From: Flavobacterium soyangense
GTDB taxonomy: Bacteria > Bacteroidota > Bacteroidia > Flavobacteriales > Flavobacteriaceae
DNA length: 64,000 nucleotides
Assembly: GCF_015277675.1 (NCBI RefSeq)
Contig: NZ_JADHEC010000018.1
Location: 1 to 64,000, forward strand
Reading direction: 5' to 3'
Shown: positions 2,110-56,812 of the stretch, in pieces
How the letters are laid out: every line of letters begins with the position of its first letter
How positions within the stretch are numbered: position 1 is the first letter of the stretch
Program-made: the position numbers and the translations under genes
The notes under the pieces: generated by a model
Told to the model about the DNA's origin: nothing
Databases searched by the model: none
What the model saw: only the letters and a program-made list of their open reading frames with translations

Positions 2110-3672
2110 TTTTTTATTGTATTCCAATAAGTTGTTATAGTCCGTTTCTTTTATTTTGTCTTTTAAAGTTGCTGCAATAAACCCCCTCGCTGTTTTTTCT
2201 TCAATATCATAATAACTATGTTTTTTTATTGCATTAGCAAGTACATCCATTTGTTCAACATACTTTTTATCAATCAATCCTTTTTTTACATCTTCTAAAA
2301 CCTTCGTTTTGTCTGCTTTAGCAAATGCAATTAATTGGTCGTAATTACGAACCATTGTATTATAACTCGTATTGGTTCGATTGGTCGTTAATTCAGAATG
2401 CTCTAAATTGCCCCCGAGCTTTTTCATAAAATCGCCTAGTGTATTTCTAGCTACAAATTCATTAGCAAGTTCCATTACTTTAGTGCCATCTTTGCTTAAG
2501 CCTACGTTGCCTGGTTTGTTTGCATTGTGCCACATTTCGTGATGTAATGTAGAGAATGCTTCTTCTTGCTTAAAAGTTGTTTTTTCGCCTCGTTTGATGG
2601 TATTTAATCCGTCTTTAATTGAGTTTAAAACATCCTTTTTTAGCGCAATAGTTCCATTCATATCTGTAAACCCGTTGACACCCTTTTGACTGGTCAGTTT
2701 TATTTCTTTAAATCCGCGCTCGAAATATTCGGGATTGTTTTTTGCAAACTCTGAAAAATAATTACTTACATCTGCTGTTGTTTCTAAAGGTTTTGGATTC
2801 TCTATTTTCTTCTTTAAAGCTTCCTCTGCCGCTTTCGCACCCGCCACTTTCCCATAAGGATACGCTGGAGGAAAAAGCACTTTATCCGCACCAGGATTAA
2901 ATCTAAATATTTCTAAACGGTTCTTACCGTCCTTGCCTATTTGAGAGGTCGCAGCTTCACCTTTCTTAATGGCTTTTTCGCTGTCTTTCAAATAACCATC
3001 ACCTTCGTATTTATCTTTCAAAACTTCAACGGTTGTACATCTACAATTCCATCCGTTTGGTGGCGTATAAGAACTCCAGAACGGGTCAGACTTTGGTAAC
3101 GTGATATTATTTAGTGCAGCGTGTTCGTCACGTACTCTGTTGTCTCCTGCGGTTCTATACTGCAACTCATAACGGTCGTTATCGCTAAACTCATTCCACT
3201 TGGCTGCCATTTGTGAGGAACCCACGGCAAACTCATATTCAGCATTCAAATAGTTGCGGTTGTAGGTTGAATTTAGTTTGTCAAATTCATTCGATAATTG
3301 AGCAAAGGGTTTCAAATTTCCTTTATCGTCTAACAATAGTTTTGAAGCTTCGAATAATTGTGCGTGGGTTTTGAGTCCGCCAAAAAGGAAAGCATCACTT
3401 TGCAATGCTGTGCGCATTGTTTCAGGCATACCGTTATCGGTAATCGCAAAATTGAAAACATCATAGGTTTGGTTAATTAGATCCTGATACGCTTTCTCCG
3501 TTTGCAAGTCTTTTGGGTTGTAACTCCCTTTTTCGTGCAGGCGTTTAAAGGCATTTTCACCAGTGTTTAAAAGTCCTTTAAATTGGTCTTTAATTGCTAA
3601 ATTCAATTGCCCGGCTTTTGCGTTGCAGTCTTCACAACCGCAATTGTACAAATTGGAAATTCGTAAATGCAA
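2086..3672 (-). CDS. MuF-type head morphogenesis protein with C-terminal zincin-like domain
   Basis: 528 aa. Residues ~150-215 hold the MuF/SPP1 gp7 minor-head signature: an RVRDEH core at 179-184 and PPNGWNCRC at 204-212. A linker (~240-300) leads into a second domain with the metallopeptidase motif HEMWH at 378-382, followed by an acidic/helical region (MELANEF, 400-406) that could provide a third metal ligand. Plain MuF proteins lack this tail. MuF proteins of temperate phages are known carriers of polymorphic toxin domains at their C-terminus; a zinc-peptidase effector or a head-maturation protease are both possible. The N-terminus is cysteine-rich (CGCEDC, 11-16). It follows the portal gene, separated only by a 30-bp palindrome. 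Confidence 0.75.
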   Translation of the reverse strand: MHLRISNLYNCGCEDCNAKAGQLNLAIKDQFKGLLNTGENAFKRLHEKGSYNPKDLQTEKAYQDLINQTYDVFNFAITDNGMPETMRTALQSDAFLFGGLKTHAQLFEASKLLLDDKGNLKPFAQLSNEFDKLNSTYNRNYLNAEYEFAVGSSQMAAKWNEFSDNDRYELQYRTAGDNRVRDEHAALNNITLPKSDPFWSSYTPPNGWNCRCTTVEVLKDKYEGDGYLKDSEKAIKKGEAATSQIGKDGKNRLEIFRFNPGADKVLFPPAYPYGKVAGAKAAEEALKKKIENPKPLETTADVSNYFSEFAKNNPEYFERGFKEIKLTSQKGVNGFTDMNGTIALKKDVLNSIKDGLNTIKRGEKTTFKQEEAFSTLHHEMWHNANKPGNVGLSKDGTKVMELANEFVARNTLGDFMKKLGGNLEHSELTTNRTNTSYNTMVRNYDQLIAFAKADKTKVLEDVKKGLIDKKYVEQMDVLANAIKKHSYYDIEEKTARGFIAATLKDKIKETDYNNLLEYNKKLFKAKGG

Positions 3673-3694
3673 TGCGTTAAAGTAAGGTTCCGTT

Positions 3695-3724
3695 TGTAGG
3701 GACAGGTCGCGACCTGTCCCTACA
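3695..3724. repeat. 30-bp perfect palindrome (REP-like)
   Basis: The half-site TGTAGGGACAGGTCG is followed immediately by its exact reverse complement. It covers the last codons and stop of the portal gene (stop at 3720-3722) and the gap before the MuF gene. Palindromes of this AGGGACAGGT type occur dispersed in environmental bacterial genomes. Within an operon the hairpin could protect or attenuate the transcript. Confidence 0.8.
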
Positions 3725-4967
3725 CGAAAAAACCCTCTCCTAGATTAAGTGATAAATTGGCAGGTTGTGCCGTTGTTTTTGTTCCAATAACTTTGATGCC
3801 AAATTTAGTTTCAACCCATTTAGGGTCAATTTCTAAAAAGGCTGCAGCTTCCACAACCATTTTCCAAAGCACTTCTATATCTTCGGTTGCATCGTATTTG
3901 TACAACACACCTGCAGGGAGGATTCCCAAGACTTGTAAAGCAGGAATTACGGTGTCACGCCAACATTGTTCTATCAATGAAAGATCACTATCTACTAAAT
4001 CGTCAAGAATGCCAATCGAGGTTTTTTCTTTTCCGTTCGAGCCGTTTTTGGTGTCCTGACCTACTACGGTTCCAGATACTCCCATTGATAACTCATTGTT
4101 GCAATAGCTCAATAAATTAGAATAGACATCGCCGTTAGTACTTACTCCTTTGGCAAACTCGAAGCTTTCAGAATCATCAATGATGAAATAGGCAGCCGAA
4201 CCCATATCGGCCATCATTTGTTTGGCACGATTGACCATTACTTTGTCTTGGGTGTTGGTTTTCATCACACGAGGCGGAATACCATAAATCTCACACAACT
4301 CACTCCAGCAACTGCCTCCAAAACGTTTGAACAATACCATCGGTACACAACCATCCAATAAGCCTAAAGTGGTGTTCTTTTCGCCAAATTCAATCAACCA
4401 GGAACCGTATTCTTTTTGCTCCCGGTACTTAATTTTTTTGTCATCGGTATAGTCATAATAAAGATAACCCGTTACAGGATCAACATTCTGACGTGGAATA
4501 CTATCAAAGGTTAGAACAGGCTCATTGTTTACCAATTTATACGAGAATTCCCCTAATGAATGGCGACGATAAACCGTTTCTAAAATGGCTTTGTTTACCT
4601 GAAAAACAAAACCTTTGTCCTGAAGTAAAGTGGTCAAAACATCGTTGGTTTTTCCATCGGCATTTTTGATACTGAAAGGTCGGCTCAATGATTTAAGCAT
4701 TCTATTATTAACCTGTGATTGCAAGTGTAAATCTTTCAGGATATTGTCATACAAGTTTTGAATAGGAAAGAATTTTGGGTTCTCTTCTACCATTGCCATA
4801 TTTTGAGCATTAGTCCAGGTCTTTATATCTTGCCTTGTTTGGCTAATGGTTTTAGGAACTATATTCTGAATATAGCTGTTTCCTGCTTTAGTCGATTTGA
4901 GCCCAAGGTCTACCGTTTCGGTCTTTTGGCCAAAAGGATTTTTTAAAAAATTTGAAATACTTCCCAT
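3720..4967 (-). CDS. Phage portal protein (DUF935, Mu gp29-like)
   Basis: 415 aa from the ATG at 4967, which lies 1 bp after the stop of the gp36-like gene; a longer frame to 5042 exists but would overlap that gene. The DUF935 pattern is clear: an N-terminal INTKxW-like region (ISQTRQDIKTWTNA), a middle segment FKRFGGSCWSELCEIYGIPP that matches the conserved portal wing, and a GKEKTS segment further on. The portal forms the dodecameric DNA gate at the capsid vertex and binds terminase and MuF protein. Its C-terminus is written by the palindrome at 3695-3724. Confidence 0.8.
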   Translation of the reverse strand: MGSISNFLKNPFGQKTETVDLGLKSTKAGNSYIQNIVPKTISQTRQDIKTWTNAQNMAMVEENPKFFPIQNLYDNILKDLHLQSQVNNRMLKSLSRPFSIKNADGKTNDVLTTLLQDKGFVFQVNKAILETVYRRHSLGEFSYKLVNNEPVLTFDSIPRQNVDPVTGYLYYDYTDDKKIKYREQKEYGSWLIEFGEKNTTLGLLDGCVPMVLFKRFGGSCWSELCEIYGIPPRVMKTNTQDKVMVNRAKQMMADMGSAAYFIIDDSESFEFAKGVSTNGDVYSNLLSYCNNELSMGVSGTVVGQDTKNGSNGKEKTSIGILDDLVDSDLSLIEQCWRDTVIPALQVLGILPAGVLYKYDATEDIEVLWKMVVEAAAFLEIDPKWVETKFGIKVIGTKTTAQPANLSLNLGEGFFV

Positions 4968-4968
4968 C

Positions 4969-5430
4969 TTAATAATCGTGATTAAATTTTGCTCTTGAAC
5001 CAAATTCAAAAGGGTTTTTGTCTCCTGCTGTGGTTTCGTCACGCACTAATTGTGGCAATGAGGAAACGTTTATTGTGCCTGTGGCTACTTTGGTAAACCA
5101 ACTCGTAGCACGGTCGTAACGGTCTTTTGCTTTTTCATAGATAAAGTCGGCATTGCACAATTCGGCTACATACCATTTTGCCAGTGTACAGCAGTGTTGC
5201 ACCACCAGAGAATGACGGTCGTTTCCTGTTTTGTTGAAGATGTTTTCTACATCATACAATAATCTACCGTCTAACCACTTTTTATTATCGGTATTTGGAG
5301 TCAAATAGCTTCTTGCCTCTTCGATGGCAGCGTTGCAAGCCTGAGCAACTAGATCATCGTTACCCTCGGTAATTTGGTCTAGTTGATAGTCATAAATGAC
5401 ACTGCCTAAATCTTCTTTGGTGATAAACAT
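4969..5430 (-). CDS. Phage gp36-like head-tail protein (DUF1320)
   Basis: 153 aa. It starts with the family pattern MFITKEDL...Y..QLDQIT followed by A..AAIEEARSYL and a helical middle (SLVVQHCCTLAKWYVAELCN), as in Mu gp36 / DUF1320 proteins encoded next to portals. Residues 100-125 (DRYDRATSWFTKVATGTI) match the conserved C-terminal helix and loop. It probably takes part in head completion or head-tail joining. It sits in the minus-strand head operon between a 46-aa gene and the portal. Confidence 0.7.
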   Translation of the reverse strand: MFITKEDLGSVIYDYQLDQITEGNDDLVAQACNAAIEEARSYLTPNTDNKKWLDGRLLYDVENIFNKTGNDRHSLVVQHCCTLAKWYVAELCNADFIYEKAKDRYDRATSWFTKVATGTINVSSLPQLVRDETTAGDKNPFEFGSRAKFNHDY

Positions 5431-41341: not shown

Positions 41342-43369
41342 ATGAAAAAAAAAATTTCAATATCCCTATTGATCTTGCTGGGCGTATTTAATTCCTATTC
41401 TCAGGACACTTTGCGCGTGGTAAAAATCACTTCAAAAAGTAAAGGACTACAAAAATCCTATAAGGTTACGGCAAACACAACACTATTGACCAGTAAGGAA
41501 TTGCTCAAGGCAGCTTGTTGTAATCTTGCCGAAAGCTTTGAGACAAATCCCACTATCGACGTCAATTTTTCGGATGCGTTAACGGGGACAAAACAAATTA
41601 AAATATTGGGTTTGACCAGCCCGTATTTGCTGATTACCGAAGAGAATATTCCTTCTGTCCGCGGCGCATCCCAAGCCTATGGGCTATCATTTACCCCAGG
41701 AACTTGGATAGAAAGCATCCAAATTACCAAAGGAGCCGGAAGCGTTGTCAATGGATACGAAAGTATTTCGGGACAAATTAACACCGAATTAATTAAGCCG
41801 GTTAAAAACATTCCTTTTTTCTTGAATGTGTATGGCTCAAGTGACAGCCGTTTTGAATTGAATACCCATTTCAACAAAAGAATTTCAGACAAATGGCTGA
41901 CCAGTTTATTCATCCACGGCAATACAAGAGTTTCAAAAGAGGACACGAATAATGATGGGTTCCTTGATAATCCATTGACAAAACAAGTCAATGTTTTAAA
42001 TCGTTGGCAATATACAGATGCCAAAAAAGGCTGGGTAAGTTTTATCAATTTACAATATTTAAATGATAAAAAACAGACGGGAGAAACTAACTTTAACCCA
42101 AATAAAGACCGAGGAACCACTAATTTTTGGGGTTCCGAAATCAATACGGAACGGTTCAATGTTTCTACGAAATTAGGGTATGTTTTTCCGGATATGCCTT
42201 ATCAAAGTTTTGGTTTTCAAAACGCTTATAATAGTCATAATCAGAATTCCTATTTTGGATTAAGCCGTTATGACATCAAACAAAGCAGCTATTATTCAAA
42301 TTTGATTTTCAATTCGATTATTGACAACACGATGCATAAATTTGCGACAGGTTTGAATTTTACGTATGACAAATATCAGGAATTTGTTAATGTGAATGAT
42401 TATAGTAGAATTGATAATTCTGTGGGTGCTTTTTTTGAATATACGTTCGATAATGCAAATAATTTTAGTTTTATTGCGGGGGGTAGAGTTGATAACCATA
42501 ACAGGTTGGGAACCTTTTTTACGCCAAGACTCCATATTCGTTACAATCTTTGGGATAAAGGTGTTTTACGCGCTTCGGCGGGAAGAGGAAAACGAAGCGC
42601 AAATATTTTTGCCGAGAACCAGCCTCTTTTTGCAAGTTCAAGGACATTCGATATTTTAGGTGCTAACGGAAAAATATATGGCTTAAATCCTGAGATTGCA
42701 TGGAATTACGGATTAAGTTTCTCGCAAGGTTTTTTGTTTTTAGGTAAAAAATCCGACATTGGGTTTGATTTTTACAAAACTGATTTCAAGAGTCAGGTAG
42801 TAGTCGATTTGTATACAACTCCAATTGTTCCTGGAAATCAGCAGGTTTTGTTTTATAACCTGAAGGGGAAATCGTACGCCAATAGCGCGCAACTGGACTT
42901 CAATATTGAATTGGCAAAACATCTCGATTTGCGCACGGCTTACAAGTATTACGACATTCAAACGGATTATTTAAGCGGAAAAAGTGAAAGACCCATGCAG
43001 TCCAAAAATCGTTTTTTTGGAAATTTATCTTATGAGACCCATAAAGACGAAAAAGGAAAGCAATGGAAATTTGATTTCACATATAATTGGTCGGGTAAAC
43101 AAAAATTACCCAACACATCCTCAAATCCTGAGCGGGACAGACTCCCCAATTATTCGCCTTCTTATTCTTTAATGAACACACAAATTACTCGAATTTTTTC
43201 CGATACTTTTGAAATCTATTTAGGTGGTGAAAACATTGGAAATTACACGCAAAAAAAAGCAATACTTGGTAGCGAAAATCCTTTTGGCTCTACTTTTGAC
43301 GCCTCCATTGTGTATGCTCCAGTTTTTGGACAAATGTATTATGCTGGACTTCGATTTAAAATTAAATAA
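41342..43369 (+). CDS. TonB-dependent outer-membrane receptor, probable metal uptake
   Basis: 675 aa. Signal peptide ~1-20; no carboxypeptidase-like N-terminal extension, so it is a plain receptor. The plug starts after ~40 (LLTSKELLKAACCNLAESFE, IKILGLTSPYLLITEENIPS, QITKGAGSVVNGYESISGQIN) with the barrel to the end (final aromatic strand MYYAGLRFKIK). It stands between the HYC_CC_PP and HMA genes, pointing to metal import. The Cys pair CC in the plug (about residue 59) may bind metal. A very close paralog of this arrangement is known in other Flavobacteria by context. Confidence 0.85.
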   Translation: MKKKISISLLILLGVFNSYSQDTLRVVKITSKSKGLQKSYKVTANTTLLTSKELLKAACCNLAESFETNPTIDVNFSDALTGTKQIKILGLTSPYLLITEENIPSVRGASQAYGLSFTPGTWIESIQITKGAGSVVNGYESISGQINTELIKPVKNIPFFLNVYGSSDSRFELNTHFNKRISDKWLTSLFIHGNTRVSKEDTNNDGFLDNPLTKQVNVLNRWQYTDAKKGWVSFINLQYLNDKKQTGETNFNPNKDRGTTNFWGSEINTERFNVSTKLGYVFPDMPYQSFGFQNAYNSHNQNSYFGLSRYDIKQSSYYSNLIFNSIIDNTMHKFATGLNFTYDKYQEFVNVNDYSRIDNSVGAFFEYTFDNANNFSFIAGGRVDNHNRLGTFFTPRLHIRYNLWDKGVLRASAGRGKRSANIFAENQPLFASSRTFDILGANGKIYGLNPEIAWNYGLSFSQGFLFLGKKSDIGFDFYKTDFKSQVVVDLYTTPIVPGNQQVLFYNLKGKSYANSAQLDFNIELAKHLDLRTAYKYYDIQTDYLSGKSERPMQSKNRFFGNLSYETHKDEKGKQWKFDFTYNWSGKQKLPNTSSNPERDRLPNYSPSYSLMNTQITRIFSDTFEIYLGGENIGNYTQKKAILGSENPFGSTFDASIVYAPVFGQMYYAGLRFKIK

Positions 43370-43421
43370 AAAAATAACAATCAGATTTGCACTAAGCAAA
43401 TCACAAATAAAAATAAAAAAA

Positions 43422-43775
43422 ATGAAAAATATAATTTTAATATTACTGGTAACTTTCGTTGGATTTTCGGTTCAAGCACAAGAAAAGAAAAACAAAAATG
43501 CAAAATATTCCATTACGGTTAATGGAAATTGTGAACAATGCCAAAGGCGAATTCAAAAAGCGGCCTTTTCGGTTGATGGGGTAAAAACGGCAAATTGGAG
43601 CATAGAAACCCATAAATTAGATTTGATTATTAACACTGAAAAGACATCAATTGATGATGTAAAAAAAGCTATAGCCAAAGTCGGTCACGATACTGATGAG
43701 GTAAAAACTACTGATGGGATTTATAGCAGTCTTCCTTCTTGTTGCAAATACGACAGGGAAAAGACAACTAAATAA
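43422..43775 (+). CDS. Secreted heavy-metal-associated (HMA) domain protein
   Basis: 117 aa from ATG 43422. Signal peptide ~1-20 (ends VQAQ), then a ferredoxin-like HMA fold with metal motif GNCEQC (Cys37, Cys40) in place of GMTCxxC, and a C-terminal Cys pair in SSLPSCCKYD. A periplasmic metal chaperone, probably for copper, serving the receptor upstream. The longer frame reaching back into the receptor gene has no usable start. Confidence 0.8.
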   Translation: MKNIILILLVTFVGFSVQAQEKKNKNAKYSITVNGNCEQCQRRIQKAAFSVDGVKTANWSIETHKLDLIINTEKTSIDDVKKAIAKVGHDTDEVKTTDGIYSSLPSCCKYDREKTTK

Positions 43776-43899: not shown

Positions 43900-44571
43900 A
43901 TGAGTAATTTCGATTGGACAAAGCTAATTAATCCTGAATTTTATATTTTAATGGAATTTGGCGGAATAAAAATGGGGTTGCTCGTTATTCTTTTTATAAT
44001 TTTTGCTGAAACTGGATTGTTTGCAGGATTTTTTTTACCTGGAGACAGCCTCTTATTTTTAGCCGGAATTTACAGTGAGTTATTGACTCGACAAATATCT
44101 GTAGGCAACGATTTTGTAAATGTAGTTTTGTTGTCCTCATTGGTTTCTTTATCAGGTGTTTTTGGGAATATGGTTGGATATTGGTTTGGCGTTAAAGGCG
44201 GCACTTATCTTTATAATAAGGAAGATACTTTTTGGTTTAAGGAAAAATACCTTTTGCAATCCAGAGATTTTTTCGAAAAATATGGAGGGAAGGCAATTGT
44301 TTTTGCGCGATTTTTACCCATTTTCAGAACTTTTGCACCCATAGTTGCCGGGATTGCCGGAATGGATAAAAAGAAGTTTATGTTTAATAATATACTTGGT
44401 TCCGTACTTTGGTCTTTCAGTATGATTTTTGCAGGACACTATTTGTCGGATTTATTTAAAACTCAATTTGGCATTGATTTAAAAAGTCATATAGAGTATA
44501 TTGTAATAGGAATTGTTCTTGTGACAACACTTCCGGTTTTATGGAAATTATTCAAAAAAAGAGTTCATTAA
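43900..44571 (+). CDS. DedA-family (VTT domain) membrane protein
   Basis: 223 aa with about five membrane segments. DedA features: the entrant loop FAETGLFAGFFLPGDSLLFLAG, the GYWFGVKGG segment, FFEKYGGKAIVFARFLPIFRTFAPIVAG and a C-terminal GHYLSDLF. Members take part in lipid carrier (undecaprenyl phosphate) recycling and membrane homeostasis. It stands alone and is followed by a terminator. Confidence 0.85.
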   Translation: MSNFDWTKLINPEFYILMEFGGIKMGLLVILFIIFAETGLFAGFFLPGDSLLFLAGIYSELLTRQISVGNDFVNVVLLSSLVSLSGVFGNMVGYWFGVKGGTYLYNKEDTFWFKEKYLLQSRDFFEKYGGKAIVFARFLPIFRTFAPIVAGIAGMDKKKFMFNNILGSVLWSFSMIFAGHYLSDLFKTQFGIDLKSHIEYIVIGIVLVTTLPVLWKLFKKRVH

Positions 44572-44589
44572 CATTATATTCTAAGTATA

Positions 44590-44627
44590 AAAGAATCCCG
44601 TTTTGCCTATAGCAAACGGGATTCTTT
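44590..44627 (+). terminator. Rho-independent terminator after dedA-like gene
   Basis: 14-bp stem AAAGAATCCCGTTT (44590-44603) / AAACGGGATTCTTT (44614-44627), extended by an inner TTGC/GCAA. Confidence 0.8.
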
Positions 44628-44646
44628 AATTTATGTAAAAATCAAT

Positions 44647-44798
44647 TTACGATGCGATTTTCAAGCGCTTCAATAAGTTTCTATTCATTGTTTCTTTTGC
44701 ATAATCAACATCGATTTTTAATATTTTATCATCAGAACTTGGCAATTCATTCATTGCCTCAGTTAGGATGACTTCACATAAAGAATGCAATCCACGAG
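44647..44798 (-). pseudogene. clpX: Detached 3'-end fragment of clpX
   Basis: These 152 bp align without gaps to the end of the intact clpX at 49039-49190, with about 15 mismatches (90% identity by hand). The minus-strand frame remains open for 50 codons, ending KRLKIAS and a TAA stop, against KRLEIAS in the real gene. Most differences change few residues (Glu to Lys, Leu to Met, Tyr to Asn). It breaks off after the codons for RGL. The fragment and clpX flank the LRR adhesin gene as direct repeats in the same orientation. Confidence 0.85.
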
Positions 44799-45092
44799 TT
44801 TACTTACTATTTAACCTAATATTAAATATTTATTTTAACATTATATTAACATGCTCATTATTAGCTTTTTACATATATTTTAAGTACATTTATTATTGTT
44901 TTTTTACTTAATTTTAACTGTTTTAACAACAATAAGAACAGTTTAAAAATCACCTATAAGTTAATGAAAAGAAGAAAATACATCTATTTTAAAAATATTT
45001 TAAGTATTCAAGAAGTGGAAACCAGAACCCACTTTAATAAACGGGGCGGGACCGAAAAGCCTTACGAGTAGGAGATTTAAATATCAGAAATC
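44799..45092 (+). promoter_or_regulatory. Leader region of the LRR adhesin gene
   Basis: 294 bp, very AT-rich up to ~45000. The last 90 bp are different: AAGTGG/CCACTT hairpin at ~45013-45034, then a G-rich segment (GGGGCGGGACCGAAAAGCC, ~45043-45061) and GAGTAGGAG before the ATG. Such an ordered leader could be a cis-regulatory RNA or a structured 5' UTR. The GAAACC and GCC elements resemble GEMM-type riboswitch parts only loosely. No confident promoter box was identified. Confidence 0.3.
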
Positions 45093-48000
45093 ATGAAGAA
45101 CTTTAAATTATTATTTTATAGTGCTTTATTTATTTTATTTTCTAGTTTTATAAAAGCGCAAGTAGTGACCATTCCGGACGTTAATTTTAAAGCAGCATTA
45201 ATTACTCTAGGAGTAGACACTAATAGTGATGGTCAAATACAGGTTAGCGAGGCATTAGTTCCTACCTATTTTAATTTACAATCTAAATCGATAGCGGATT
45301 TAACAGGAATTAAAAGTTTTACCAACCTTACAACATTATATGTTGATTCAAATCAATTAACAACACTTGATGTTTCAGGATTAACAAAACTAACTACTCT
45401 AGGCTGCACGAATAACACTCTAACCACATTGACATTAACCGGGTTAGTGAATTTATCCACCCTGGATTTTTCTAAAAATGAAATGGCCTCTTTTGATGCA
45501 ACAGCATTAACTAAATTAACCTCATTATCCTGCAATTTAAATAAACTCATATCTTTAGACACAACGGGATTAACTTTATTAAGCACATTAAACTGTTATG
45601 ATAATCTATTGACTTCTCTTGATGTTTCGGGGTTGACCAAATTAGTTAATTTGTATTGTTATAACAATTTTAGTTTGACAAATATTGACGCTTCTGGTTG
45701 CCTTATATTATCAAATATAAACTACAGTTATGGTGGGGGTGCTCCCATAAAAGTTTTAAATTTATCAGATTGTAAAGCCTTGACTTATTATGACAGTAGC
45801 GGTATAAAAACTACACTTACTACTTTGAATTTATCAAATTGTACAGGATTAACATCGGTAGCTTTAAATAACAATGATTTATTGACCACATTAGACATCA
45901 GCGGTTGCACGCAATTAACTTCATTAAGCGTAACCAATAATCCGCTTTTTAACTCCTTGGATGCATCGGGATTGGCAAAATTAACCAATTTAACCTGTAG
46001 CAATAATGCACTAACCACAGCTACATTAAAAACTACTGGCTTAACAAGTTTAGCCACTTTGGATTTCTCAAATAATCTACTGGTCACTTTTGACGCGACT
46101 GCTCTAACAAAACTAACCACATTGTCCTGTAATGCCAATCAATTGACCTCTTTAAATGTTACAGGATTAACTTTGTTAAGCACCTTAAATTGCTATGATA
46201 ACCTCCTAACTACTCTTGATGTTTCCGGTTTAACCAAATTAGTTAATCTGTATTGTTACAGCAACTTAAGTTTAACCGATATAAACGCTATCGGTTGTAT
46301 TGCATTAACTAATATAAACTACAGCTACAGTAGTAACGACCCTATAAAGAATTTAAATTTATCAGGCTGCAAAGCCCTAACTTATTTTGACAGCAATAGT
46401 ATAAAAACTACACTTACTTCAATGAATTTGTCTAATTGTACAGGGTTAACATCTGTAGCTTTAAACAACAATGATCTATTAACCACATTAGACATAAGCG
46501 GTTGTACCCAATTAACTTCGTTAGGCGTGTCCAATAATCTGCTTCTTACTTCCCTAGATGTCTCGGGATTGGCAAAATTAACCAGTTTGGTCTGTAGCAA
46601 TAATGCGCTAACCACAGCTACATTAAAAACTACTGGTTTAACAAGTTTAGCCACTTTGGATTTTTCAAATAATCAACTGATCTCTTTTGATGCAACAGCT
46701 TTAACAAAACTAACCACGTTGTCTTGTAATGCCAATCAATTGACCTCTTTAAATGTAACTGGATTAATTTTATTAACCACCTTGAATTGTTATGATAACC
46801 TGCTGACTTCTCTTGATGTTTCAGGCTTAAGTAAATTAGTTTATCTGTATTGTTACAACAACTTTAGTTTAACTGACATAAACGCTTCCGGCTGTCTTGC
46901 GCTAACAACTCTTTACTATAACTACACTAGTAGCGACCCTATAAAAAATTTAAATTTATCGGGCTGTAAAGCACTAACTAGTTTTGATAGCAGTGGTATG
47001 AAAACAACACTTGCGTCTTTGAATTTGTCAAATTGTACAGGACTAACTTACGTGACCTTAAATAACAATGATTTATTGACAACATTGGACATCAGCGGTT
47101 GTACCCAGTTAACTTCATTAAGCGCAACCAATAATCCGCTTCTTACCTCTTTGGATTTATCGGGATTGGCGAAGTTAACCAATTTAGTCTGCAACAACAA
47201 TGCACTCACAACATTAAAAACGATTGGATTAACCTTATTATCAACGTTAGATTTCTCAAATAATCAAATGGCCGCTTTTGATCCGACTGCGTTAACAAAA
47301 CTAACTATATTCTCTTGTAATTTCAATAAATTGACCACTTTAAATGTAGCAAGTTTGACCTTGTTAACCAGTTTGAGTTGTAACAATAACCTGTTGACTT
47401 CTCTTGATGTTTCGGGCTTAACTAAATTAGTTTATTTATATTGTTATAATAACGACAGCCTGATTGACATCAACGCATCTGGTTGTCTTGTGTTGACAAC
47501 ACTTTATTACTATGACTATTATAACTACAACAACAGTGATCCGATAAAAAATCTAAATTTATCTAACTGTAAAGCATTGACTAATTATGACAGTAACGTT
47601 ATAAAAAACACGCTAACTTCCTTAAATTTGTCTAATTGTATAGGGCTAACCTCGGTAACTTTAAACAACAATGACCTATTGACCACGTTTGACATAAGCG
47701 GCTGTACCCAATTAACTTCGTTAAGTTGTACTTATAATCCGCTTCTCACATCCTTGGACGTATCTGGATTGGCAAAATTATCCAGTTTAAACTGTACCAA
47801 TAATGCGTTAACCACAGCTACATTAAAAACGACAGGTTTAACTAATTTGACCTCTTTGGATTTTTCAAATAATCAACTTGCCACTTTTGACGCAACTGCT
47901 TTAACGAAATTAGCCACATTGTCCTGTAATTTCAATCGGTTAACAGCATTAAATGTTACGGGTTTGACTTTATTAACTAGTTTGAGTTGTACCGATAATA

Positions 48001-48923
48001 AATTATCACAATTAGATTTTACAACTAATTCTAAACTTAATTATATCAATTGTAATTACAATTCTATTGTTAGTATAGATTTGAGGAATAGTCTAACCAA
48101 TTCTGTAGCCCTTTATGCTTCCTATAATACTCCACTAACGAGCATTTGTACCGATTCAGGAGACAATGTTTATGGAAGTTGGGACAATAATGTTATACCT
48201 ACATTTTCGCCAGCTCCTACAGGTGCAGCTACGCAGACATTTTGTAATTTTGCAAAAGTTTCTAATCTTGTTGCAACCGGATCTGCCATAAAATGGTATG
48301 CCACTGCAACTTTAGGAATTGCTCTAGCCACCGATACTGATTTGGTAAACAATACAACATATTATGCGAGCCAATCTTTAAATTCCTGTGAAGGCACATC
48401 ACGTTTACCTGTAAAAGCGGTAATCAATGTAACTCCTGCACCATCTGGTTTAGCGGCGCAAACACTTGAAATTGGTAAAACTGTTGCCGATATTGTAGTT
48501 ACTGGAACAAATGTTATTTGGTATGCTTCGGCCGCTGATGCTGGATTAGGCATAAACCCATTAGCAACAACAACTCAAGTAGTAAACTCAACAATATATT
48601 ATGCGACTCAAACTTTAGCAGGTTGTTCTAGTGCGACTAGCTTAGCTATAACAATAACTACTACATTAGGTATTGATAATTTTGATTCCAGCACTTTCCA
48701 TTACTATCCTAATCCAGTTCATGATAATTTGAATTTATCATATGGCTTTAAATTGACAAGCATAAAAATATTCAACACAATTGGACAAGAAGTGTATTTT
48801 AAAAACATAGATGCTTCTTCGTTCAATATTGATATGTCAAATTTTAAAGATGGAATTTATTTTGTCGAAGTGAAATCAGACAATGGTTCGAAAACTATCA
48901 AAGTAATAAAAAGCACACTTTAG
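45093..48923 (+). CDS. Giant leucine-rich-repeat adhesin with T9SS sorting domain
   Basis: 1276 aa. Signal peptide ~1-23, an EF-hand-like/LRR cap (IPDVNFKAALITLGVDTNSD), then about 45 LRRs of ~21 residues (L-x-x-L-x-C-x-x-N-x-L-T-x-L-D-V-S-G) up to ~1000, two Ig-like modules (~1040-1190, each with WYA and TYYA-type strands) and the T9SS type A C-terminal sorting domain (YYPNPVHDNLNL ... GIYFVEVKSDNG). The LRRs are organised in super-repeats of ~197-203 residues. Secreted to the surface by the type IX system. Possible roles are adhesion or binding of host or prey glycans. It is flanked by clpX and a copy of the clpX end. Confidence 0.85.
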   Translation: MKNFKLLFYSALFILFSSFIKAQVVTIPDVNFKAALITLGVDTNSDGQIQVSEALVPTYFNLQSKSIADLTGIKSFTNLTTLYVDSNQLTTLDVSGLTKLTTLGCTNNTLTTLTLTGLVNLSTLDFSKNEMASFDATALTKLTSLSCNLNKLISLDTTGLTLLSTLNCYDNLLTSLDVSGLTKLVNLYCYNNFSLTNIDASGCLILSNINYSYGGGAPIKVLNLSDCKALTYYDSSGIKTTLTTLNLSNCTGLTSVALNNNDLLTTLDISGCTQLTSLSVTNNPLFNSLDASGLAKLTNLTCSNNALTTATLKTTGLTSLATLDFSNNLLVTFDATALTKLTTLSCNANQLTSLNVTGLTLLSTLNCYDNLLTTLDVSGLTKLVNLYCYSNLSLTDINAIGCIALTNINYSYSSNDPIKNLNLSGCKALTYFDSNSIKTTLTSMNLSNCTGLTSVALNNNDLLTTLDISGCTQLTSLGVSNNLLLTSLDVSGLAKLTSLVCSNNALTTATLKTTGLTSLATLDFSNNQLISFDATALTKLTTLSCNANQLTSLNVTGLILLTTLNCYDNLLTSLDVSGLSKLVYLYCYNNFSLTDINASGCLALTTLYYNYTSSDPIKNLNLSGCKALTSFDSSGMKTTLASLNLSNCTGLTYVTLNNNDLLTTLDISGCTQLTSLSATNNPLLTSLDLSGLAKLTNLVCNNNALTTLKTIGLTLLSTLDFSNNQMAAFDPTALTKLTIFSCNFNKLTTLNVASLTLLTSLSCNNNLLTSLDVSGLTKLVYLYCYNNDSLIDINASGCLVLTTLYYYDYYNYNNSDPIKNLNLSNCKALTNYDSNVIKNTLTSLNLSNCIGLTSVTLNNNDLLTTFDISGCTQLTSLSCTYNPLLTSLDVSGLAKLSSLNCTNNALTTATLKTTGLTNLTSLDFSNNQLATFDATALTKLATLSCNFNRLTALNVTGLTLLTSLSCTDNKLSQLDFTTNSKLNYINCNYNSIVSIDLRNSLTNSVALYASYNTPLTSICTDSGDNVYGSWDNNVIPTFSPAPTGAATQTFCNFAKVSNLVATGSAIKWYATATLGIALATDTDLVNNTTYYASQSLNSCEGTSRLPVKAVINVTPAPSGLAAQTLEIGKTVADIVVTGTNVIWYASAADAGLGINPLATTTQVVNSTIYYATQTLAGCSSATSLAITITTTLGIDNFDSSTFHYYPNPVHDNLNLSYGFKLTSIKIFNTIGQEVYFKNIDASSFNIDMSNFKDGIYFVEVKSDNGSKTIKVIKSTL
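45594..47987 (+). repeat. Four LRR super-repeats of about 600 bp
   Basis: Corresponding points (the TGT of the NCYDNLL-type motif) recur at 45594, 46191, 46788, 47379 and 47988, giving spacings of 597, 597, 591 and 609 bp (199, 199, 197, 203 codons). Each block runs through the same series of LRRs, including DISGCTQLTSL and LDFSNN units, and is highly similar, so the gene grew by recent duplication of ~600-bp units and may vary between strains. Confidence 0.8.
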
Positions 48924-48981
48924 TTTTATAAAAAGAACCAAGGAAAAAAGGTGCTTTTAATGAGTCTATTAAAATAAAAAA

Positions 48982-49014
48982 AAATTCCGTAAGATTCAAA
49001 ATCTTACGGAATTT
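48982..49014. terminator. Bidirectional terminator between LRR gene and clpX
   Basis: 14-bp stem AAATTCCGTAAGAT (48982-48995) / ATCTTACGGAATTT (49001-49014), with A-run before and T-run after, suited to the convergent genes on both sides. Confidence 0.8.
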
Positions 49015-49038
49015 TTATAATTTTTTCATTTGCTTGTC

Positions 49039-50271
49039 TTATGATGCGATTTCCAAGCGCTTCAATAAGTTTCTATTAAGTGTTTCTTTTGCATAATCCA
49101 CGTCGATTTCTAATATTTTATCATCAGAACTTGGCAATTCATACATTGCATCGGTTAGGATAGCTTCGCATAAAGAACGTAATCCACGAGCTCCGAGTTT
49201 GTACTCCAATGCTTTTTCGACAATAAAATCCAAAGCCTCGTCAGTGATGCTGAATTCAACTTCATCCATCAAAAATAACTTTTGATATTGCTTGATTAAG
49301 GCATTTTTAGGCTCGGTCAAAATCGCTCTCAAAGTTTCTTTGTCCAAAGGATCCATATGCGTCAACACCGGCAGACGCCCGATAATTTCCGGGATTAATC
49401 CAAAATCCTTGATGTCTTTTGGGATAATGTATTGCAACAAATTGTCCTTGTCTATATTATCCACATTTTTTGATGTGCTATAACCAACTGCTTGACGATT
49501 CAATCTTTTTGAAATAATTTTTTCAACTCCATCGAAAGCGCCTCCTGCAATAAACAAAATATTTTGAGTGTTTACCTCAACAAATTTCTGGTCTGGGTGT
49601 TTTCTTCCCCCTTTTGGTGGAACATTTACCACAGTTCCTTCCAATAATTTCAACAAAGCTTGTTGAACTCCTTCACCAGAAACATCACGAGTGATGGATG
49701 GATTATCGCTTTTGCGTGCAATTTTATCAATCTCGTCAATAAAAACGATGCCTCTCTCGGCTTTGGCAACATCATAATCCGCAGCTTGCAATAAACGTGT
49801 CAAAATACTTTCGACATCTTCACCCACATAACCTGCTTCTGTCAAAACTGTCGCATCAACAATTGCCAAAGGAACATCCAACATTCTGGCGATGGTTTTT
49901 GCAACCAAAGTTTTTCCCGTTCCTGTTTGTCCAACCATAATGATATTGCTTTTTTCAATCTCAACATCATCATGCAATTCTTGTTGCATTAAACGTTTAT
50001 AATGATTGTAAACCGCAACGGACATCACTTTTTTGGTTTGGTCTTGACCAATAACATATTGATCTAGAAAAGCCCTGATTTCTTTTGGTTTCTTTAAAAT
50101 CAAGTCTGCCGGCAAGCTTGTCTTACCACTTGATTTTATTTCTTCTAATACAATTCCGTGGGCTTGTTCGATACATTTATCACAAATGTGTGCATCAATT
50201 CCGGCTATCAATAAATTGGTCTCCGGTTTTTTCCTTCCACAGAATGAACATTCTAATTTTGGTTTTGCCAT
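49039..50271 (-). CDS. clpX: ATP-dependent Clp protease ATP-binding subunit ClpX
   Basis: 410 aa from ATG 50271 ([11 protein letters not shown]). Zinc-binding domain with Cys8, Cys11, Cys30, Cys33; AAA+ module with Walker A GQTGTGKT, Walker [11 protein letters not shown], and the ClpP-contact / sensor region further on. It unfolds tagged proteins for ClpP. The longer frame from 50322 would include repeat DNA. Downstream of clpP in the tig-clpP-clpX order. Confidence 0.95.
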
Positions 50272-54460: not shown

Positions 54461-55222
54461 TTATTTTAAAAATGAACTCGTAATCTCATAAAATAGCTTT
54501 GGATTTTCGGCGTGGAGCCAATGCCCTACATTAGGAATGGTTTCGATTCTTGAATTGGGAAAATGCTGCTGTATGTTTTGAAAATCTTCATCCAGAATAT
54601 AATGGGAGTTTCCACCACGAATGAAAAGTGTTGGTTTCGTGAAAATAGAATTCTCGGGAAGAGGCCTCCCAATTTCTTCCATTTCTTTATTAAAAACAGC
54701 CAAATTAAATCGAAAAGCTAATTGTCCCGGTTCTATCCAATAAAGGTTTTTCAACAAGAATTGTCTGGTTCCAAAATCATTTATATATTTCTCCAAGATT
54801 TCTTCGACCTCTTTTCGGCTTGGTTTTTTTGAAAAATCGACTGCATTCAATCCTTCAAGAATACTTTGATGATGTTGCGGATAAAATTTTGGGCCAATAT
54901 CAGCAACTATCAATTTTTCGACCATATCTGGATGGATTGAAGCAAAAAGCATAGCCGTTTTTCCGCCCATTGAATGCCCTAGAATGTTGACTTTTTCCAG
55001 ATTATTGGCTTTGCAATAGTCATAAACATCCTGAGCCATTATTTCGTAACTGAACTCTTCGGAATGAAAACTCTTGCCGTGGTTGCGCAGATCCAATAAA
55101 TGAACCTGAAATCCATCGGCAGCAAATTGCGTCCCCATAGTTTTCCAATTGTCAGACATTCCCAGAAATCCGTGAAGAATTAGGAGCGGTTTACCCTCGC
55201 CTTCTGTTTTTGAATGAAGCAT
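54461..55222 (-). CDS. Alpha/beta hydrolase (YbfF-like esterase)
   Basis: 253 aa. Oxyanion region LLILHGFLGMSDNW, nucleophile elbow GHSMGGKTA (Ser about residue 88), catalytic Asp region FIRGGNSHYI and His in IPNVGHWLHAENP near the C-terminus. The whole sequence matches YbfF-like soluble esterases that cut short acyl esters. It is followed, on the same strand, by pdxJ upstream. Confidence 0.8.
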   Translation of the reverse strand: MLHSKTEGEGKPLLILHGFLGMSDNWKTMGTQFAADGFQVHLLDLRNHGKSFHSEEFSYEIMAQDVYDYCKANNLEKVNILGHSMGGKTAMLFASIHPDMVEKLIVADIGPKFYPQHHQSILEGLNAVDFSKKPSRKEVEEILEKYINDFGTRQFLLKNLYWIEPGQLAFRFNLAVFNKEMEEIGRPLPENSIFTKPTLFIRGGNSHYILDEDFQNIQQHFPNSRIETIPNVGHWLHAENPKLFYEITSSFLK

Positions 55223-55240
55223 AAATGATTGTTATTTTTT

Positions 55241-55320
55241 GCGTGAAGGATGGAAGTGGAAATCCCACGCTTTTGGGCGTGGATTGCAACGAACAGCCTG
55301 ACCCTTGTGGTCACGCCCAA
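55241..55320. repeat. Dispersed Flavobacterium repeat (MITE-like)
   Basis: 80 bp between pdxJ and the hydrolase gene with GTGGAAATCCCAC-type stem and the longer inverted pair GGGCGTG (55275-55281) / CACGCCC (55312-55318). The GATTGCAACGAACAGCCTGACCC core matches the kind of repeat scattered in Flavobacterium chromosomes. Confidence 0.55.
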
Positions 55321-55326
55321 ATTATT

Positions 55327-56040
55327 TTATTTTAGTTTCTGTAAATACATATTAACCACATTATCCAATCCGAGATAAATAGCTTCTGAAATGAGTGCGT
55401 GCCCAATGGAAACTTCTAGCAATCCGGGAATATTTTGGCTGAAAAACTGAATATTGTCAAGACTCAAATCGTGTCCGGCATTAATTCCCAAACCAAGTTC
55501 ATTTGCCAATATGGCCGATTTTACATAAGGGTCAATTCCGTTTTTGTTTCCCAAGCTATATTCGTGAGCAAAAGCTTCGGTGTACAATTCGATTCTTTCG
55601 GTTCCAATGATTTTTGCACCTTCAATCATTTCGAGAGCCGGATCTACAAAAATCGAAGTTCTTATGCCGTTTCGCTGAAATTCCTGAACAATTTCGGTTA
55701 GAAAATCCTTGTGTTTTATAGTGTCCCAACCTGCATTAGAAGTTATGGCATCGATAGCATCCGGAACTAATGTGACTTGTGTTGGTTTTATTTCTAATAC
55801 TAAATCGATAAAAGTTTTTTCGGGATTTCCTTCAATATTATATTCAGTGCAAACTATTGATTTTAGGTCACGAGCATCTTGATATCGAATGTGACGTTCG
55901 TCTGGACGCGGATGAATTGTAATTCCTTGACCACCAAATTTCTGAATATCAGTGGCAACTTTTAATAAATCAGGGACATTTCCTCCACGAGCATTACGCA
56001 AAGTTGCTATTTTGTTAATATTTACACTTAACTTTGTCAT
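55327..56040 (-). CDS. pdxJ: Pyridoxine 5'-phosphate synthase
   Basis: 237 aa. It joins 3-amino-2-oxopropyl phosphate and 1-deoxyxylulose 5-phosphate to form pyridoxine 5'-phosphate in vitamin B6 synthesis. TIM-barrel with the PdxJ signature: VNINKIATLRNARGG, TIHPRPDERHI, VTLVPD, and C-terminal GHDLSLDN and IGHALISEAIYLG. Length is normal for the family. Confidence 0.93.
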   Translation of the reverse strand: MTKLSVNINKIATLRNARGGNVPDLLKVATDIQKFGGQGITIHPRPDERHIRYQDARDLKSIVCTEYNIEGNPEKTFIDLVLEIKPTQVTLVPDAIDAITSNAGWDTIKHKDFLTEIVQEFQRNGIRTSIFVDPALEMIEGAKIIGTERIELYTEAFAHEYSLGNKNGIDPYVKSAILANELGLGINAGHDLSLDNIQFFSQNIPGLLEVSIGHALISEAIYLGLDNVVNMYLQKLK

Positions 56041-56152
56041 TGGAATAATTTTTGAGAATAATTTTCAGGATTTGAAGTGCAAAAATACAAAGTAAAACTA
56101 GCCATTATTGCATAATTTTGATTATTTTGCATCAAATATTTTAAATTTATTT

Positions 56153-56812
56153 ATGACAGAAATTACAAACTATATTACTAATGATTTTAAAGCGATTGAC
56201 AGCCAAGAAAGTATTGCGGTGGTTCAGGAATTTTTTGATGAGTTGACTTTTTCGCATTTTCCGGTGGTTGAAGAAGAAATTTATATTGGCAGTATAGCTT
56301 CTGATGACATTGAAACTTTTGATGGCTCAAAAAAAGTAATCGATTATAGATATTCTCTTGAAAGATTTTTTGCCAGGACAACTATGGTTTGGCTTGACGT
56401 TTTGGAGGTTTTTGCAAAAAACAACACTAATTTAATTCCAGTTTTGGACGAAAAAAATAAATATGTTGGCTATTATGAAATCGCTGACATTATGAAATTT
56501 TTTAACGAAACACCCTTTTTACATGATACAGGAAGGATTATCGTAATCAAAAAAAGAGTATTAGATTATTCAATGAGTGAAATTACTCAAATCGTAGAAA
56601 GTAATAATGGGAAAATATTAGGTTTATTTGTATCAGAAATAGATACTGAAAACATACAAGTAACCATTAAAATAAGTCTAGGAGCCATAAACGAAATAAT
56701 TCAGTCCTTCAGAAGATATAATTATGAAATTATATCTGAACATTTTGAAGATAATTATATCAACACCTTAAAGGATCGCTCAGATTATTTGGACAAATAT
56801 CTTAATATCTAA
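56153..56812 (+). CDS. CBS-domain protein
   Basis: 219 aa from ATG 56153. Two tandem CBS motifs (~1-125) with VVQEFFDELTFSHFPVVEEE and VFAKNNTNLIPVLDEKNKYVGYYEIADI, then an ACT-like segment ~135-200 (IIVIKKRVLDYSMSEITQIVES). A cytoplasmic sensor that binds adenosine nucleotides. -7-like TAATTTTG at 56113-56120 may be its promoter. It is co-transcribed with nadK (8 bp gap). Confidence 0.75.
   Translation: MTEITNYITNDFKAIDSQESIAVVQEFFDELTFSHFPVVEEEIYIGSIASDDIETFDGSKKVIDYRYSLERFFARTTMVWLDVLEVFAKNNTNLIPVLDEKNKYVGYYEIADIMKFFNETPFLHDTGRIIVIKKRVLDYSMSEITQIVESNNGKILGLFVSEIDTENIQVTIKISLGAINEIIQSFRRYNYEIISEHFEDNYINTLKDRSDYLDKYLNI

Follow-up and report, generated by a model that had tools for sequence, protein, structure and literature searches.

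We analysed a stretch of 64,000 nt of a Flavobacterium soyangense contig (hereafter the window), in which a gene for a leucine-rich repeat (LRR) protein lies between the genes clpX and dedA, and in which the last 152 nt of clpX are present twice, once in the intact (live) gene and once, as a stub, on the other side of the LRR gene. The genome is a draft of 95 contigs (completeness 100, contamination 0.27). A repeat search of the window placed the two copies at 44647-44798 and 49039-49190, as direct repeats of 152 nt that are 90% identical and whose starts are spaced by 4392 nt. This agrees exactly with the initial annotation of this DNA, which had described a 152-bp fragment at 44647-44798, about 90% identical to the clpX end and in the same orientation. 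Read along the + strand, dedA (+) is followed by a hairpin and by the clpX stub (-); after about 210 nt come a DUF805 RNA (+) and the LRR gene (+), then a second hairpin and finally clpX (-). The parts are as follows (ORF, open reading frame; aa, amino acids).

43900-44571, + strand: dedA, a VTT-domain gene (Pfam VTT_dom, 59.8 bits), flanking the stub side and convergent with clpX
44590-44628, no strand given: hairpin terminator on the dedA side of the stub, taken for the old terminator of clpX on account of its sequence and of the likeness, over 29 nt, of the stub's flank to that of clpX in the relative G164
44647-44798, - strand: clpX 3'-end stub, comprising 2 nt and the final 50 codons (90% identity with the live end)
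44799-45009, + strand: stretch upstream of the LRR gene; the likeness to clpX ends at 44798/44799, the repeat boundary
45010-45078, + strand: DUF805 cis-regulatory RNA (RF03081), 75.9 bits, gathering threshold 51.1
45093-48923, + strand: LRR passenger gene, 1276 aa, convergent with clpX (ORF plus domain matches)
48971-49025, no strand given: hairpin terminator between the LRR gene and live clpX (inverted repeat)
49039-49190, - strand: live clpX 3' end, read as a replacement end from the repeat and the comparison of untranslated regions
49039-50271, - strand: clpX, 410 aa from an internal ATG; the listed ORF reaches 50322 from a TTG

The two ends of clpX and their untranslated regions

Among the 51 window ORFs of at least 100 aa, clpX is alone in having its 3' end copied again within the window, and in the organism's own assembly the two clpX-end copies were matched at E 8.7e-75 and 2.6e-54, with the next of the 36 listed matches at E 0.46. 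Stub and live end differ by seven nonsynonymous and eight synonymous changes. Between the copies the LRR gene is the one long ORF, in keeping with the earlier statement that no integrase gene lies there; the overlapping ORFs of 60-116 aa on the opposite strand are listed frames only.

Comparison with relatives suggests which of the two ends is the older (in what follows, G numbers are genomes and L numbers are loci of the comparison set). The closest relative by ClpX, G164 (98% aa), has a dedA gene that is 95% identical in aa at 2.7 kb from clpX, with an 813-aa gene between the two, and neither the stub nor the LRR gene was found at its clpX-dedA locus. The initial annotation had allowed for an ancient tandem duplication shared by all relatives, a picture contradicted by G164, which has clpX, dedA nearby and no stub. 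In a search around dedA genes of other genomes, clpX was within the stretch examined (up to 8 kb on each side) in 1 of 80 dedA loci, L185, which corresponds to G164. Behind its stop codon the stub continues as ATTGATTTTTACATAAATTAA..., which matches the untranslated region of G164 clpX at 24 of 29 nt. G164 gave the best match to this region among 120 loci (24), followed by L179 (22) and then by 16, and none of 100,000 shuffled controls reached 24 of 29. Stub and flank together can be aligned to G164 across 180 nt. The untranslated region of live clpX, in turn, matches that of G164 at 10 of 29 nt and holds an unrelated terminator, and the first 100 nt past the live stop gave no blastn match (E 1e-3) among the 120 other clpX loci. 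Because the untranslated region of the stub is G164-like and that of the live gene is unrelated, we read the stub as the old end of clpX, with an old terminator that would now be common to dedA. The live end, most likely, came in together with the LRR gene. The initial annotation had suggested seeking the source of the fragment among other clpX genes; this gave the G164-like flank of the stub and no donor of the live end. Live clpX resembles its relatives throughout (the closest at about 90% in DNA), and no switch point could be placed in the window.

Two other genomes show comparable differences between stub and live end. In G278 the untranslated region of the stub is, by eye, like that of a sister species and the live one is unlike it. 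In G168 the clpX ends of G211 and G220 are matched at 97% identity by a segment of 61 nt that starts 50 nt before the stub stop, and the live untranslated region is of the type found in the leader of Fic genes (see below).

The presumed passenger is predicted to encode a secreted protein. Its domains are nine LRR_4 stretches (163.4 bits), two Ig_7 stretches and a C-terminal sorting domain of type A of the type IX secretion system (T9SS; Por_Secre_tail 47.6 bits, TIGR04183 50.3 bits). With both the repeats and the C-terminal sorting domain, the predicted product qualifies as a T9SS-secreted LRR protein, and a role as an adhesin is a reasonable guess from the LRR architecture. The RF03081 match just upstream of the LRR start scores above the Rfam gathering threshold. 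In a DNA search of 398 genomes most other listed matches cover the stretch of the DUF805 RNA and not the LRR gene. The pattern of this element was found in four of the nine other matching loci inspected, where the next ORF varies (497 aa in L091, the same 270 aa in L093 and L094, 93 aa in L096); a literature search returned no paper under the name DUF805 RNA. For the LRR segment, the 398 genomes gave only partial, distant matches outside the own genome, the top-scoring of which (66% identity, G287) lies on a contig other than that of the G287 clpX.

Two further features of the window are recorded here. A Flavo-1 RNA (RF01705) at 55236-55307 scores 46.4 bits (gathering threshold 42). At 41342-43775, between a metallo-beta-lactamase gene and dedA, lie a TonB-receptor-like gene and an HMA gene, present in some relatives and undetected in others (e.g. 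G164, L184 and L190), another variable insert at a gene junction.

Recurrence of clpX stubs and of other gene-end scars

A second match to the 49-aa peptide of the stub was found, at E 1e-5, in 4 of 299 genomes of the genus (the own genome, G278, G031 and G125). The wider survey comprised 120 clpX loci plus the window, picked from the 299 genomes mainly by similarity of ClpX to that of the window. It is thus not a random sample: some loci were included because they resembled the stub peptide, a second match had drawn attention to G278 and G031, and several listed genomes were skipped. Sense stubs reaching the clpX stop occur at 10 of these 121 clpX loci, and antisense ones at none. The search at E 0.02 gave 22 sense and 7 antisense matches, of which only those extending to within 10 nt of the clpX end were counted. 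In G031 a 100% identical tandem copy, next to an N gap, was taken as an artefact, leaving only the 35-nt distal stub of that genome to be counted; the second end in G125, at a contig edge, was not counted. The cases include two single-contig genomes, G274 and G291. Stub lengths in the 10 loci range from 34 to about 218 nt, and decay may have shortened some of them; a further stub, in G028, measures 84 nt.

The genes behind clpX help to place these stubs. On the same strand, clpX is followed by serB in 99 of 120 loci, the other 21 lacking serB in the stretch examined, and the clpX-serB spacer measures at most 171 nt in 25 loci, 200-460 nt in 14, 0.9-2.5 kb in 14 and 2.5-10 kb in 46. In seven loci (L063, L064, L068, L071, L074, L078, L108) the stub is followed closely by serB and by a hairpin of the type found in short spacers. 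The passengers between live clpX and stub differ: a Fic gene (L063, L064, L159), a RelE-family gene (L068), an NHL-repeat protein gene (L078), a VOC/AHSA1 gene group (L071, L108), a 534-aa protein without a Pfam match (L059) and two small ORFs, of which the one scanned had no Pfam match (L074). In G274 (L159) the Fic cassette is stacked before the VOC/AHSA1 group. Elsewhere, long spacers mostly carry a recurring group of VOC, AHSA1 and regulator genes without a stub, and therefore many of them probably represent ordinary gene order and not fresh insertions.

Similar scars were found at other gene ends. The 120 loci contain 1486 ORFs of 100 aa or more. Copies of their 3' ends in noncoding sequence and in sense orientation were found downstream for clpX (8) and for other genes (7), and upstream once. 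For 5' starts there were, again in noncoding sequence, no sense copies upstream, two sense copies downstream and two antisense copies. Copies inside other ORFs were left out as likely paralogs (28 sense copies of 3' ends, one of them of clpX, and 55 sense copies of 5' starts). Among the 3'-end scars clpX is over-represented (odds ratio 13.9, Fisher 5.7e-6), a value that, like the binomial ones, overstates independence because the genes of the 120 loci are largely homologous. L074 also has an ORF6N gene behind a GH3-like gene (named by eye), and L135 has a different passenger behind a homologous gene. Three loci (L119, L175, L049) hold arrays of related small genes, between which the 3' end of the upstream gene is repeated, like orphan immunity arrays.

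A scan of the own genome (864 kb, 723 ORFs, window included) revealed two more clear 3'-end stubs, both on contig C1, at about 3382-5120 and 54876-56470. One, of 119 nt (80%), belongs to a gmd-like gene and the other, of 70 nt (91%), to a polysaccharide-export-permease-like gene; in both cases an ATPase-like ORF lies between gene and stub (names by eye). Polarity is less clean in this genome, with six downstream sense copies of 3' ends against four upstream copies of 5' starts (24-34 nt). Of the six, two come from a pair of genes with a dispersed repeat in common, which also yields all 14 antisense matches, and a third is no more than 64 nt away from its gene.

Alternative origins of the repeated end

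The repeat could have arisen by tandem duplication of the clpX end inside the genome, with the LRR gene inserted later between the copies. As a null for such a local duplication we let the stub drift freely and the live copy gather synonymous changes only. Differences between stub and live end are mostly synonymous in L059 (14/18, p 0.002), L063 (5/5, p 0.012) and L078 (4/4, p 0.029), or 23/27 when pooled (p 3e-6), and in L321 of G028 (6/7, p 0.02), and thus argue against local duplication at these four loci, which are less decayed stubs picked after the fact. In L059, 186 of the 218 nt hold 7/7 synonymous changes, and 30 more in-frame nt at the broken edge hold seven synonymous and four nonsynonymous ones; with the 186-nt count only, the pooled p is 7e-7. 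L064 and L159 show no difference between stub and live end, and L071 (frame-shifting indels) and L074 were left out of the counts. A simpler null, which gave P=0.02 for the window, was dropped because it ignored synonymous drift in the live copy. At our locus a duplication would need a second event, and on its own it leaves the new untranslated region of live clpX unexplained. Stub and live end are, by a slight difference, mutually nearest at synonymous sites, as a duplication would have it. On balance we regard this origin as unlikely.

Several observations weigh against the reading of the live end as a newcomer anchored in clpX. In the window itself, eight synonymous and seven nonsynonymous changes do not reject local duplication (p=0.24), and L108 (11/17 nonsynonymous) and L068 (5/10) look decayed and do not reject it either. 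The live end of the window, for which no donor was found, is also nearest to G164 (91%), and the synonymous distances are nearly equal (8 between stub and live end, 9 between stub and G164, 12 between live end and G164). The live coding end of G278 is nearer to its sister L132 than the stub (94.5 vs 90.4%). Mosaicism of the coding sequence in G168 and G291 proved weak on closer inspection. Finally, a stub start at 152 nt is common to the window and G241 (L071), with different passengers, and one at 42-43 nt to G293, G274 and, in decayed form, G199. Such recurring starts are unexpected under random joining, and they therefore keep alive the possibility that passengers travel as units with a clpX tail of their own. 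These units would insert tail-to-tail, as a circle or with two tails, so that both junctions are homologous.

Fic genes provide most of the evidence for such units. Relatives of the Fic gene (E 1e-40) occur in 9 of 299 genomes, and five of the nine lie directly behind clpX (G293, G274, G168, G028, G155), all with a stub (42-84 nt) save that of G155. A sixth, in G220, is bordered by short tails of clpX (29 nt matched, 96.6%) in a part of its contig where clpX is absent, but this genome is a 75%-complete draft whose contig ends at the Fic locus. The three most distant Fic genes sit away from clpX. A GCTCA repeat pattern precedes the Fic genes, in a form that, by eye, is varied before the three distant ones. 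Tails of 42-43 nt occur in two diverged Fic cassettes (92% aa), those of G293 and G274 being identical to the host's own clpX end, and the stacking of cassettes in G274 also fits. In 17 of 120 loci, where 0.12 would be expected, the core of the Fic leader, the hairpin AAGCTCAAAAA, follows clpX at a distance of at most 250 nt, although the Fic gene itself is present in only three of them (L063, L064, L159). We read the other 14 (e.g. L042, L043, L076) as fossils of lost Fic cassettes or as cases in which the leader now serves clpX as a terminator. L068 and L074 both have a Fic leader, and their stubs may likewise have been inherited from a Fic cassette, and the 10 stubs therefore do not amount to 10 independent insertions. 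Against units with a tail of their own stand the differing stub lengths, from 34 to about 218 nt and 84 nt in G028, and the absence of any record with at least 80% aa identity among 71 and 65 clpX-end records in phage and plasmid collections. Overall, we consider this origin rather improbable. In its widest form, to which we give just as little credence, the clpX 3' end would be an address for unrecognised integrase-free Flavobacterium cassettes (Fic, toxin-antitoxin, LRR and others) that carry a copied tail, insert tail-to-tail with clpX kept whole, stack, and leave stubs or promoter fossils when lost, and other genes would be the addresses of other cassettes.

Tyrosine-recombinase islands leave direct repeats and restored gene ends, and those at gene 3' ends carry an integrase, with a direct repeat of the gene end and a gene restored by the element. 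A former island of this type at the clpX 3' end, whose integrase was lost or acts in trans, would leave such remnants, and it might also fit the recurring boundaries at 152 nt and 42-43 nt and the 13 Phage_integrase matches in the own genome. However, these 13 all lie on contigs other than that of the window, and 586 ORFs behind clpX, searched with blastp and a hidden Markov model (HMM), yielded no integrase, a search in which transposases were not covered separately. The HMM was built from the 13 integrases of the own genome and recovers those 13. The integrase gene at one border that marks a genomic island is thus missing at the clpX locus, most stub-bearing loci have few passengers, and the stub boundaries vary where a constant attachment core would be looked for. 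An island of this type is very unlikely. An assembly artefact might be suspected in a draft of 95 contigs, yet the same pattern is found in single-contig genomes, and a collapsed or doubled repeat is unlikely because the copies differ by 10%; we give this explanation almost no weight.

Proposed recombination anchored in clpX

The locus probably bears the scar of an insertion that replaced the end of clpX. Our preferred reading, held with moderate confidence, is that the LRR gene was gained by recombination anchored in clpX, which would be a hotspot for events akin to homology-facilitated illegitimate recombination (HFIR). The foreign DNA would have carried the LRR gene, its DUF805 leader, a terminator and, at one end, the 3' part of another strain's clpX. 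This part would have recombined with resident clpX, the homologous anchor, and the far end would have been joined to the resident gene, without extended homology or an integrase, at a point 152 nt from the end of that gene. The old end, with its terminator, would have been left as a stub no longer under selection, while the working end that came with the newcomer would have kept clpX whole. We infer the direction of the event, the origin of the DNA outside this strain, its way into the cell and the non-homologous second junction. Genes of the ComEC and DprA families are present in the own genome, which is compatible with DNA uptake, a possible and unproven route. The initial annotation had proposed integration with a replacement end: the replacement is supported by the switch of untranslated region and by the recurrence with other passengers, whereas the window alone does not set it apart from local duplication. 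As relatives bear the same scar with different passengers, and as no integrase was found nearby, this looks like recurrent, integrase-free gene gain behind clpX.

The ways in which bacteria acquire single genes where no mobile element is involved are mostly a matter of inference. The clpX locus fits a gain of DNA without an integrase, as in HFIR. In two reports, HFIR in Acinetobacter, Streptococcus pneumoniae and Pseudomonas stutzeri has, like the event proposed here, one homologous anchor, another end without homology and no integrase (PMC2884548, PMC5361080). HFIR is known from experiments and inferred for variable segments, e.g. in E. coli (PMC2884548), whereas here a natural scar would be repeated at the end of one housekeeping gene across the genus. 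An HFIR-like event, rare in experiments, was also proposed in a study of displaced effectors in Vibrio (PMC5361080). In the immunity arrays of the type VI secretion system described there, a new module displaces the old effector, whose 3' end or immunity gene is shifted downstream, much as at clpX; the small-gene arrays of L119 and L175 resemble these arrays. The anchor in that account (PMC5361080) belongs to the effector cluster itself, whereas here it would be clpX, which is unrelated to the passenger. The literature we searched gave no paper on clpX as an insertion hotspot in Flavobacterium, and the papers listed in related searches did not deal with this locus, an absence limited to those searches.

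The scar proposed here is directional, since the stub keeps the old terminator and the live end has a new one, and it can therefore be counted in genomes. If clpX and other conserved genes at the ends of operons are indeed regular docking points, gene flow based on such anchors could be mapped genome-wide.

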